From Cellulomonas endophytica (lineage in GTDB: Bacteria; Actinomycetota; Actinomycetes; Actinomycetales; Cellulomonadaceae), in contig NZ_RWJX01000001.1 in NCBI RefSeq assembly GCF_004123805.1, positions 62,001 to 126,000 of the forward strand: a stretch of 64,000 nt of DNA, read 5' to 3'. Both the position numbers and the translations under genes were made by a program. This document shows, in pieces, positions 61,335 to 64,000 of the stretch (position 1 is its first letter; every line of letters starts with the position of its first letter). The notes under the pieces were generated by a model that had not been told where the DNA came from, ran no database searches, and was given only the letters and a program-made list of their open reading frames with translations.

Positions 61335-62198
61335 CTAGGGCCGCAGCTCCGGGCCCTCCGGGGCGGGGCGGTGCAGCAGGCGCCGCAGGAACGTCCGTGT
61401 GCGCTCCTGCTGCGGGTGCTCCAGCACCTGCGCGGGCGGCCCCTGCTCGACGACCACGCCGCCGTCCATGAAGACGACGAGGTCGGCCACGTCGCGGGCG
61501 AAGGCGAGCTCGTGCGTGACGACGAGCATCGTCCAGCCCTCGCGGGCGAGCTCCGTCATGAGGTCGAGGACGTCCCCGACGAGCTCGGGGTCGAGGGCCG
61601 ACGTCGGCTCGTCGAAGAGCAGCAGCGCGGGCCGCAGGGCGAGGGCGCGCACGATCGCCACCCGCTGCTGCTGCCCGCCGGACAGCTCGTGCGGGTAGGC
61701 GTCGGCCCGGTGCTCCAGCCCGACGCGCCGCAGCAGCTCCAGCGCCTCGGCGCGCACCTCGCGCTCGGGCCGGCGCTGCACGACGAGCGGCCCCTCCGTG
61801 ACGTTCTGCAGCACGGTCCGGTGCGGGAAGAGGTGGAAGTGCTGGAACACCATGGCGGAGCGGTCCCGCAGGGCCGCCCGGTCGGCCCGGGTGGCGCCGG
61901 CGCCGAGGTCGACGCGCAGGTCGCCGACCTCCACCACGCCCGCCTCGGGGGTCTCGAGGTCGTCGAGGCAGCGCAGGACGGTGGTCTTGCCCGAGCCCGA
62001 CGGCCCGATGAGGGCGACGACCTGCCCGCGCCGCACGTCGAGGTCGATGGAGCGCAGCACGGGCGTCCCGTCGAAGGACTTCTCCAGCCCGCGCACGCGC
62101 AGGAGCAGCTCGCCCGGGGCGACGCCGCCCGAGGCACCGGGCCCGGCAGCGGGCCCGCCGGCCGGGGCGGGCCCGCCGGTGCGGTCAGTGGGCGACAT
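61335..62198 (-). CDS. Polar amino acid ABC transporter ATPase
   Basis: Protein of 287 residues of the GlnQ/HisP type. Walker A GPSGSGKTT, Q-loop VFQHFHLFPHRTVLQNV, signature LSGGQQQRV, Walker B LLLFDEPTSALDPEL and H-switch VTHELAFARDVAD are complete. The first 30 residues are Gly/Pro/Ala-rich. It overlaps the permease stop by 14 nt. Completes a three-gene importer with the binding protein and permease. Confidence 0.94.
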   Translation of the reverse strand: MSPTDRTGGPAPAGGPAAGPGASGGVAPGELLLRVRGLEKSFDGTPVLRSIDLDVRRGQVVALIGPSGSGKTTVLRCLDDLETPEAGVVEVGDLRVDLGAGATRADRAALRDRSAMVFQHFHLFPHRTVLQNVTEGPLVVQRRPEREVRAEALELLRRVGLEHRADAYPHELSGGQQQRVAIVRALALRPALLLFDEPTSALDPELVGDVLDLMTELAREGWTMLVVTHELAFARDVADLVVFMDGGVVVEQGPPAQVLEHPQQERTRTFLRRLLHRPAPEGPELRP

Positions 62199-62847
62199 GG
62201 CGCTCCAGGCGGGTCTCGAGACGGCTCTGGCCCGCGGACAGGACGAGGCAGATCACCCAGTAGATCGCGGCCGCCTCGCTGTACACGACCATGAACTCGC
62301 GGCTGAAGGCCGAGATCTCCTGGGCCACCCGGAACATCTCGGTCACCAGGACGATGGAGGCCAGGGACGTGTCCTTCACCAGGCTGATGAACGTGTTCGA
62401 CAGGGGGGGCACCGACACGCGCGCGGCCTGCGGCAGGATGATCCGCCGCAACGCCTGGGTGCGGTTCATCCCGATCATGTGGGCGGCCTCCCACTGGCCG
62501 CGCGGCACGGACAGCACCGCCGCCCGGATCACCTCGGCGGCGTACCCGCCGACGTTGATGGAGAACGCGATGATCGCGCTCGGCCACGACGGGATCGTGA
62601 CGCCGAGGGACGGCAGCCCGAAGAAGACGACGAAGAGCTGCACCAGCAGCGGGGTCCCGCGGACCACGGACACGAAGGCCCGCGCCGGCGCCCGCAGCCA
62701 CCACCGGCGCGAGAGCCGCATGAGGGCGACGACGAGCGCCAGCACCAGGCCGATGGCGAACGAGACCAGCGCCAGCGGGATCGTCCCCCGGACCGCGCCG
62801 CCGACGAGCGGCCCGAGGGAGTCGAGGAGCAGCTCCCCCGTCGTCAC
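62185..62847 (-). CDS. Polar amino acid ABC transporter permease
   Basis: Membrane protein of 220 residues with about five transmembrane segments. The EAA loop is EAAHMIGMNRTQALRRIILPQAARVSVPPLSNTFISLVKDTSLAS, diagnostic of the His/Glu/Gln/Arg/opine family. GTG overlaps the binding-protein stop by 4 nt. A single permease here would act as a homodimer. Confidence 0.94.
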   Translation of the reverse strand: MTTGELLLDSLGPLVGGAVRGTIPLALVSFAIGLVLALVVALMRLSRRWWLRAPARAFVSVVRGTPLLVQLFVVFFGLPSLGVTIPSWPSAIIAFSINVGGYAAEVIRAAVLSVPRGQWEAAHMIGMNRTQALRRIILPQAARVSVPPLSNTFISLVKDTSLASIVLVTEMFRVAQEISAFSREFMVVYSEAAAIYWVICLVLSAGQSRLETRLERHVAH

Positions 62848-63695
62848 GGCACGGTCACGTCCGCGCCGAAGTACGTCTGCGAGATCTCCGCGAGGGTGCC
62901 GTCGGCGGCGAGGGCGGCCAGCGCCTCGTCGATCGCGTCACCCAGGGCCGTCGCCCCGCCGGCCAGCGCGACCGCGCTGCGGGACTGGTCCTCGGTCTCC
63001 GCGGCGACCTTGAGGTCCGTGGCGTCGTCGGTCTGGGCGTAGTCGAGCCACGTCAGCTCGTCGTTGATCGTCGCGTCGACGCGGCCCTGGCGCAGCAGCT
63101 CCACGGCCTGCGCCCAGCCCTCGACGGCCTCCACCTGGGCGCCGCTCTCCTGCGCCAGCGTGTACCAGTTCGAGGTGAGCGACTGCGCGGTGGTCGTGCC
63201 CGACAGGTCCTCGAAGGAGGCGATGCTGCTGTCGTCCGCGCGGACCACGACGACGCCGCGGGAGTAGGTGTACGGCTCCGAGAAGGTGTAGGACTCCTCA
63301 CGCTCCGGCGTGATGGAGACCTGGTTGGCGATGGCGTCGAACCGGCCCGCCTCCAGCCCGGCGAAGATCGCGTCCCACTGCGTCTCCTCGAAGCGCACCT
63401 CGACGCCCAGCTCCTCGCCGACCGCGCGCGCGACGTCGACGTCGAAGCCGACGAGGTCCCCCGAGCCGTCCTCGTGGTAGCTGAAGGGCCGGTAGGTGCC
63501 CTCGGTCCCCACGACGAGCTCGCCCGCGTCCAGGACGTCCTGCAGCGAGGTGTCCTCCCCGCCGGCGTCCGCCGGGGCGGAGCCGCCCGTCCCGCCCGCG
63601 TCGGAGGAGCAGGCCGCGAGGGTGAGGGCGGCGGCGGCGAGGAGCGCGGCCCCGGTCCGTCGGGCGGCGCGGGGGGTGCGGGGCAGGCGGAGCAT
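62844..63695 (-). CDS. Amino acid-binding lipoprotein of ABC importer
   Basis: Protein of 283 residues. Signal peptide with lipobox LTLAAC; Cys29 is lipidated. SBP_bac_3 features are LVVGTEGTYRPFSYHEDGSGDLVGFDVDVARAVGEELG, QWDAIFAGLEAGRFDAIANQVSITPEREESYTFSEPYTYSRGVVVV and GRVDATINDELTWLDY. The ANQVSITPERE segment is close to that of cystine-binding FliY/TcyK proteins, so cystine is a reasonable guess; other polar amino acids remain possible. AAGGA is 7 nt before the ATG. Upstream leader has a Cys/Arg-ending ORF (see 63866). Confidence 0.9.
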   Translation of the reverse strand: MLRLPRTPRAARRTGAALLAAAALTLAACSSDAGGTGGSAPADAGGEDTSLQDVLDAGELVVGTEGTYRPFSYHEDGSGDLVGFDVDVARAVGEELGVEVRFEETQWDAIFAGLEAGRFDAIANQVSITPEREESYTFSEPYTYSRGVVVVRADDSSIASFEDLSGTTTAQSLTSNWYTLAQESGAQVEAVEGWAQAVELLRQGRVDATINDELTWLDYAQTDDATDLKVAAETEDQSRSAVALAGGATALGDAIDEALAALAADGTLAEISQTYFGADVTVP

Positions 63696-63763
63696 GAGGG
63701 GTCCTTCGCGTGGTGGTGGTGCATCGGTCCGTGCGGGGCGGGCGGTGCGTCCTGTGCCGGAGG

Positions 63764-63796
63764 GGCCGGGCGGGGGCCGGAGGGGCCCGCCCGGCC
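63764..63796 (-). terminator. Hairpin in importer leader, possible attenuator
   Basis: Arms 63764-63774 and 63786-63796 (GGCCGGGCGGG) are exact reverse complements with an 11-nt loop. It lies about 70 nt after the leader ORF stop and before the binding-protein gene. No T-tract; in actinobacteria a strong stem without T can still act on termination or ribosome access. Confidence 0.45.
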
Positions 63797-63865
63797 GTCC
63801 GCGGTCGGACGGGGGCGGGGCGGGCACCCGGCGGGGCGCCGCGGGCGGACGGGGCGCGGGGCCGG

Positions 63866-63946
63866 TCAGCGACAGCGGCGGCGGCGACAGCACCACGCCG
63901 CCGCGGCCGGGGCCGTGCGGGGGCGGAGCGGTGCGGCGGCGTGCAT
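63866..63946 (-). CDS. Leader peptide ending in a Cys/Arg cluster
   Basis: Short ORF of 26 codons. The first half is Ala/Pro/Arg-rich; it finishes with WCCRRRRCR and then TGA. Three Cys codons occur in the last eight, a strong excess for an actinobacterial ORF. The ATG is 6 nt after TGAGAT with no ribosome site, so it would be translated from a leaderless transcript. Mycobacterial poly-Cys leaderless ORFs are known to control downstream cysteine-related genes by ribosome stalling. Inference: a cysteine sensor for the importer. Too short to exclude chance. Confidence 0.5.
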   Translation of the reverse strand: MHAAAPLRPRTAPAAAAWCCRRRRCR

Positions 63947-64000
63947 GGCGCGATCTCAGCACACCCGCCCGCGGGGAGCCACCCGGGTCCACGCCCGTGG

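Follow-up and report, generated by a model that had tools for sequence, protein, structure and literature searches.

A cysteine-codon leader ORF upstream of a probable cystine importer in Cellulomonas endophytica and its relatives

A short open reading frame that ends in a run of cysteine and arginine codons lies upstream of a probable cystine importer operon in Cellulomonas endophytica, and comparison with related loci indicates that it is very probably a cysteine-responsive attenuator of that operon. Leaders of this kind recur in front of related importers despite differing peptides, which supports the central reading of a first-pass annotation of this DNA, namely a leaderless Cys-codon attenuator before a cystine importer. 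The region belongs to a stretch of 64,000 nucleotides, referred to here as the window, whose relevant features are as follows.

63953..63961, minus strand: extended −10 element TGCTGAGAT (TG and one further base, then the hexamer TGAGAT), six bases upstream of the leader ATG
63866..63946, minus strand: leader ORF MHAAAPLRPRTAPAAAAWCCRRRRCR, 26 codons, putatively leaderless, with equivalents in importer relatives
63872..63892, minus strand: putative sensor codons (TGC 63892-63890, TGT 63889-63887, four CGC, TGT 63874-63872)
63696..63865, minus strand: C-rich spacer from leader stop to importer start, 170 nt, C/G 1.85
63764..63796, minus strand: perfect 11-bp hairpin GGCCGGGCGGG / CCCGCCCGGCC, 11-nt loop, no T run after it
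63702..63707, minus strand: Shine-Dalgarno-like GAAGGA of the binding-protein gene; similar sites precede many relatives' starts (by eye)
62844..63695, minus strand: substrate-binding lipoprotein (SBP_bac_3), probably cystine-binding; best NCBIfam match cystine binding protein, 179.9 bits (cut-off 312)
62185..62847, minus strand: ABC permease; best NCBIfam match cystine permease, 250.5 bits (cut-off 300)
61335..62198, minus strand: ABC ATPase; best NCBIfam match cystine TcyN, 318.4 bits (cut-off 406)

The leader ORF and the importer operon

The leader starts with the ATG at 63946 and stops at the TGA at 63868-63866 on the minus strand, confirming the 26-codon, Cys-ending ORF ahead of a binding-protein gene that the first-pass annotation had described. 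Its cysteine codons are C19 (TGC), C20 (TGT) and C25 (TGT), all within the final eight codons. We scored ORFs by the number of Cys residues among the final 14, adding one for a CC pair and weighting UGU and UGC equally. Among the ATG/GTG ORFs of 12-45 codons on both strands of the window, solely the leader scored 4 or more, and none of 1000 shuffles of the window's 400-nt upstream region yielded an ORF with the leader's score. Across both strands of 849 kb of the host genome (window included), 14 ORFs were at this score. Two of the 14 were mapped to genes, the window leader and a leader on contig C153, and both precede cystine or sulfur genes.

The operon downstream of the leader is a probable cystine importer. 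The binding-protein gene begins with the ATG at 63695, and the genes for the binding protein, the permease and the ATPase overlap end to end. All three subunits fit the NCBIfam cystine models better than the arginine models, and none of them reached the equivalog cut-offs for a cystine ABC importer (FliY/TcyL/TcyN type). The best PDB chain for the binding protein was 2yln (E 7e-62), a gonococcal cystine receptor. The cystine-like binding lipoprotein proposed from the first reading is supported by its best NCBIfam match, though this lies below the cut-off, and by its best PDB chain.

The importer frame is itself open upstream past the leader as far as a GTG at 63992 (62844-63992 in the window), so automatic annotation may assign the binding protein a false long N-terminus. 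A frameshift fusion of leader and importer was considered and set aside on open-frame lengths, as the importer frame is not equally open upstream in relatives. Further upstream, beyond the window and on the same strand, an ORF for a HAD-type phosphatase ends ∼75 nt short of the leader ATG. The gene for the mycothiol cysteine ligase, mshC, which exceeds the cut-off of TIGR03447, lies ∼2.2 kb upstream at L009:5115-6434, also on the same strand.

Recurrence of the leader and its apparent leaderless start

Importer relatives came from three sources: the family, where 148 of 150 genomes gave a match (counting paralogues); a further scan, of which the best 80 named loci were taken; and the genus, where 24 of 81 genomes contained the importer at E 1e-60 or better. 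A script assigned the importer starts, except at L040, L091 and L104, where they were picked by hand. Of the 139 non-identical 400-nt regions upstream of importer relatives, 27 reached a Cys score of 4, a figure that contains near-duplicates and three Arthrobacter loci later set aside; over 60 rounds of shuffling, the mean was 0.77 and no round exceeded 4. Neither the reverse strand of the 139 regions nor a coding-stretch control from the same loci contained an ORF at this score. In the three Arthrobacter loci set aside (L081, L082 and L096), the CCC lies ∼57 nt before the importer and overlaps a GGAAC-N-GTT promoter-like site. Two more regions at the score were also set aside, L095 (an Arthrobacter locus with an ORF of 59 codons) and L136 (with one of 55 codons); in neither does the start look leaderless.

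Within the genus, one of 25 loci (L227) runs off its contig and 21 of the 24 others carry a leader, the criteria being a leaderless spacing and Cys codons close to the stop; some of these score below 4, having two Cys (L219) or at least three Cys without a CC pair. The leader is missing at L218, L220 and L030, and the leader-less loci of the genus include Cellulomonas marina, the closest relative found. Across the family, such leaders are present in Cellulomonas, Actinotalea, Flavimobilis, Demequina and additional genera. No such leader was found at the named Arthrobacter, Cryobacterium, Naasia, Agromyces, Microbacterium, Nesterenkonia and Nocardioidaceae loci, and importer relatives outside the leader-bearing group are mostly without one. 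Elsewhere in the host, neither of the remaining two SBP_bac_3 loci carries a leader of this kind, and six cysK-like loci (PF00291) have no comparable leader within 1.5 kb, the one scoring ORF (in L165) not looking leaderless. An Rfam search of 62500-64000 gave no match up to E 1.

For the analyses below we used a set of 27 leaders, from which the near-duplicates L015, L019, L023, L033 and L158 had been dropped, and an enlarged set of 38 that also drops L065, L221, L224, L234, L235 and L237. The curated leaders were chosen by eye, partly on Cys content, and thus Cys enrichment within the set is circular. Their N-termini diverge widely and their ends are Cys runs such as CCPACCLRCC, CRRCCRR and CCCCPSRSC, with 2 to 6 Cys per leader in variable number and spacing (27 leaders). 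In 15 close pairs, Cys positions were kept in 58 of 60 cases and other positions in 246 of 294 (p 0.007), a comparison biased because a pair having lost Cys would not have been picked, and because several pairs share one member. Orthologue comparison had been named beforehand as a test of the ORF and of its Cys codons, and many related importers do keep the ORF, the leaderless spacing and the Cys codons.

The start of the leader appears to be leaderless, judging from the promoter spacing. Of the 27 leaders, 14 carry the pattern TGnTnnnnT exactly at −15 to −7 relative to the start, whereas of 305 further start codons in these regions only 2 do. In the 38-leader set, the −10 element is exact in 18 and shifted one base up in 15, that is, 33 of 38 together. 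Within 63600-64000, no promoter emerged from a scan for the sigma-70 consensus, whose rule requires a −35 as well as an A in the second position of the −10 hexamer (here TGAGAT). The transcript would be expected to start at the leader start codon, and ribosomes would then initiate on the leader ORF directly. At L040 (Cellulomonas marina, whose importer start was picked by hand; L218 has the same upstream sequence), L021 and L022, there is no leader and the importer's own start codon stands at the −10 element, with leaderless-like spacing, an arrangement suggestive of a leader that was lost or never acquired.

Codon choice in the leader tails

The leaders favour the rare Cys codon UGU. It accounted for 71 of 100 Cys codons in the 27 leaders, whereas 439 long host ORFs used it for 68 of 1490 (p 3e-60); in relatives the count was 19 of 175. 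In the 38 leaders it accounted for 101 of 138, and every leader contained at least one. The preference was strongest when the next base was C, where UGU made up 66 of 70 codons in the 38 leaders but 30 of 428 in host ORFs. When T followed, the figures were 32 of 54 and 8 of 235, respectively; before G and A, UGU made up 2 of 8 and 1 of 6 leader codons, respectively. Other U-ending codons rose much less in the leaders, from ∼1-8% to 2-24%. Because the Cys score counts UGU and UGC alike, this excess was not selected for, and 11 leaders fetched after the rule had been seen (two of them close to earlier ones) contained 30 UGU and 8 UGC. Among the 30 top-scoring members of the curated class NF042934, some of them near-identical, UGU made up 51 of 109 leader Cys codons, compared to 22 of 148 in the ORFs that flank them; the following-C context of the importer leaders is absent there.

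If the usual single tRNA-Cys(GCA) is present, UGU would be read by wobble, and the simplest explanation of the UGU preference would be wobble decoding that sharpens the sensor. No tRNA-Cys was found within the 40 stretches scanned. UGU, if wobble-read, would heighten the sensitivity of the pause. Extending this idea, we tentatively propose, as a conjecture that we hold less probable than its negation, that the sensor is tuned synonymously, selection having placed the rare wobble-read UGU, usually before C, in Cys leaders of GC-rich actinobacteria such that a small drop in charged tRNA-Cys would stall the ribosome. The importer leader would then belong to one ribosome-read regulon together with the Cys leader of the NirA/sulfite reductase-type operon in the same cell, described below, with thresholds graded by UGU content. 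The UGU rule provides a cheap signature to find such leaders, and makes the setting of attenuator sensitivity by synonymous codons a directly testable question.

Arginine is the other residue of the window tail. It makes up 34% of the final 12 residues in 18 Cellulomonas leaders, against 13% and 11% in the other frames, and 17% in 19 leaders of other genera, against 16% and 9%. The Cys/Arg ending of the window leader is typical of its genus, and cysteine is the putative signal common to all the leaders compared. As arginine is enriched solely in Cellulomonas and not in other genera, arginine sensing, which the first-pass annotation had also raised, would be at best a lineage-specific addition.

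These data bear on three other explanations of the leader. The C-R-R-C tails of Cellulomonas could form a dual sensor of charged Cys and Arg tRNAs, a proposal that gains from the arginine enrichment in the 18 tails and from a raised share of CGT (28 of 90 Arg codons, against 8% in long ORFs of the host), and that loses from the near-background arginine of the 19 leaders outside the genus, from the window tail using CGC, the commonest Arg codon, and from subunits that match cystine models better than arginine ones; we regard it as improbable. It is less probable still that the ORF encodes a functional Cys-rich peptide, binding metal or redox-active, rather than a sensor. Cys residues are indeed kept in close pairs, but their number and spacing vary (2 to 6), the N-termini differ between genera, the Cys codons sit near the stop, and the strong synonymous bias is something that a protein function does not need. 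Least credible of all is an ORF arising by chance in GC-rich DNA: the 849 kb of host genome do hold 12 further ORFs of the same score beyond the two mapped to genes, yet no shuffle at the locus reproduced the score and the leader recurs strongly at the same place in relatives.

The spacer, the output of the proposed sensor and known cysteine leaders

According to the attenuator model, when Cys-tRNA is charged, ribosomes would reach the leader stop and release, and the spacer would hold importer expression low. When Cys-tRNA is scarce, ribosomes would pause on the UGU/UGC codons near the stop, and the pause would alter folding or termination in the spacer, so that the importer would be made and cystine taken up.

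The spacers are rich in C. Their C/G ratio has a median of 1.65 and a minimum of 1.33 in the 38 leaders, against 1.15 in the 165 nt upstream of 108 leader-less importers and 1.11 in the 18 leader-less importers with over 70% G+C, a control that excludes duplicates of leader loci. The perfect 11-bp hairpin seen in the first reading is present at 63796-63764, and a stem that long (loop 3-12) occurred in 9 of 2000 dinucleotide shuffles of the window spacer; it was absent among the hairpins of the other 26 leader spacers scanned. A pattern scan found no intrinsic terminator-like site in 63600-64000, and the fold of the window leader was not more stable than that of shuffles (z +1.3).

A stem of at least 6 bp beginning 3-24 nt past the leader stop, an interval chosen after viewing the sequences, was present in 17 of 38 spacers, compared to a shuffle mean of 2.7 and maximum of 7 (200 rounds); the window leader is not among the 17. 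In a model of the stalled ribosome, the ribosome-binding site of the importer was not opened (27 loci, Wilcoxon p 0.84), and complementarity between the Cys tract and the ribosome-binding site was no greater or smaller than with swapped or shuffled partners (38 loci). As a general feature, a Cys tract that sequesters the importer's ribosome-binding site gained no support from these analyses. In six Actinotalea-type loci, a hairpin past the leader stop and a hairpin before the Shine-Dalgarno are kept with a few paired changes, and the consensus fold pairs the Cys codons with the ribosome-binding site in largely invariant columns with an unfavourable covariation term. The consensus fold of ten Cellulomonas loci contained almost no structure.

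In known polycysteine leaderless attenuators, a structure reportedly hides the downstream ribosome-binding site and a stalled ribosome opens it; polycysteine leaderless short ORFs of mycobacteria are reportedly the subject of work by Canestrari et al. in 2020. Cysteine leaders had been predicted in 2005 upstream of cys operons in Mycobacterium and P. acnes and of cbs in B. longum, as given in the cysteine section of that paper (PMC1262725). According to later papers (PMC13236596, PMC9094748 and PMC9031893), Canestrari et al. 2020 demonstrated in M. smegmatis that leaderless ORFs bring about attenuation in response to cysteine. Against this background, two outputs of the same sensor compete in our case. 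We lean slightly to RNA refolding with translational control rather than Rho-dependent termination, because translational attenuation is what the accessible parts of two papers report for the mycobacterial cases (PMC13236596, PMC9031893) and because hairpins at the leader stop are enriched in relatives. The other output we consider somewhat less probable than not: the C-rich spacer would be a Rho loading site, exposed by quick release at the stop so that transcription ends early, and masked at its start by a Cys-paused ribosome. The C/G excess of the spacers over both leader-less controls and the lack of an intrinsic terminator in the window spacer speak for it, and Rho was proposed for mycobacterial cys leaders in the portion of the 2005 paper available (PMC1262725). 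C-richness, however, predicts Rho loading weakly, and a paused ribosome would cover just the first spacer bases.

The host also carries a Cys leader of the known type. On contig C153, MSTDRAVRLVARRHVDLLRTASAACGTPACCRTARAL (L192:2931-3044) precedes a NirA/sulfite reductase-type gene and two genes with PAPS-reductase domains. It contains the Cys codons TGC, TGT and TGT, and matches NF042934 at 32.6 bits (cut-off 27), as the sole host match above that cut-off. Ten importer leaders (that of the window and nine others) reached no NCBIfam cut-off: the window leader matched none of the families and the nine others matched neither NF042934 nor NF042936, one of them giving an unrelated sub-cut-off match (TIGR04135, E 0.011). 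One genome thus holds two types of Cys leader, the known class on assimilation and an unannotated type on probable uptake. The inferred function is the same as that of the NF042934 cis_reg_atten and NF042936 Ms4527A leader peptides, although the importer leaders compared match neither family.

By its anatomy, the importer-leader sensor would work like the mycobacterial one. As far as the accessible text on the mycobacterial polycysteine leaders goes, both have a start at the transcript start (here deduced from promoter spacing), a short ORF, Cys codons by the stop and a cysteine-related operon downstream. They differ in that the target here is a probable cystine importer, the UGU preference is stronger and sequestration of the ribosome-binding site is without general support. 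The importer leaders compared lie outside the curated families, and the mycobacterial output mechanism gained no support here. The leaders predicted in 2005 share the Cys codon runs near the stop and the lack of an obvious terminator, while the cysteine section of that paper lists cys operons and cbs in other families, with no importer and no Cellulomonadaceae (PMC1262725). Classical terminator attenuators (trp, ilv) likewise have a leader peptide with regulatory codons for the amino acid of the pathway, but here there is no T-run terminator and the leader is apparently leaderless. Among the open-literature matches listed, with subscription papers mostly outside, no paper dealt with a cystine importer leader in Cellulomonadaceae or with the UGU bias. 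With these leaders, cysteine attenuation through short leader ORFs would reach beyond biosynthesis operons and include the probable uptake of cystine in Cellulomonas, Actinotalea, Flavimobilis and Demequina, through a leader type missed by the annotation models tested.

Another upstream motif was observed at importer relatives. GGAA[TC]-N17..19-GTT occurs upstream of 51 of 109 importers without a leader (L042, L066, L067, L078, L087 and others), compared to a shuffle mean of 1.1. The motif is like promoters of the SigH/SigR type, and its presence at leader-less importers possibly reflects thiol-stress control in place of the attenuator. The motif also lies inside the spacer in 5 of 32 leader regions (L020, L043, L120, L121 and L122), 78-118 nt before the importer start, where it is possibly a second promoter that bypasses the attenuator.
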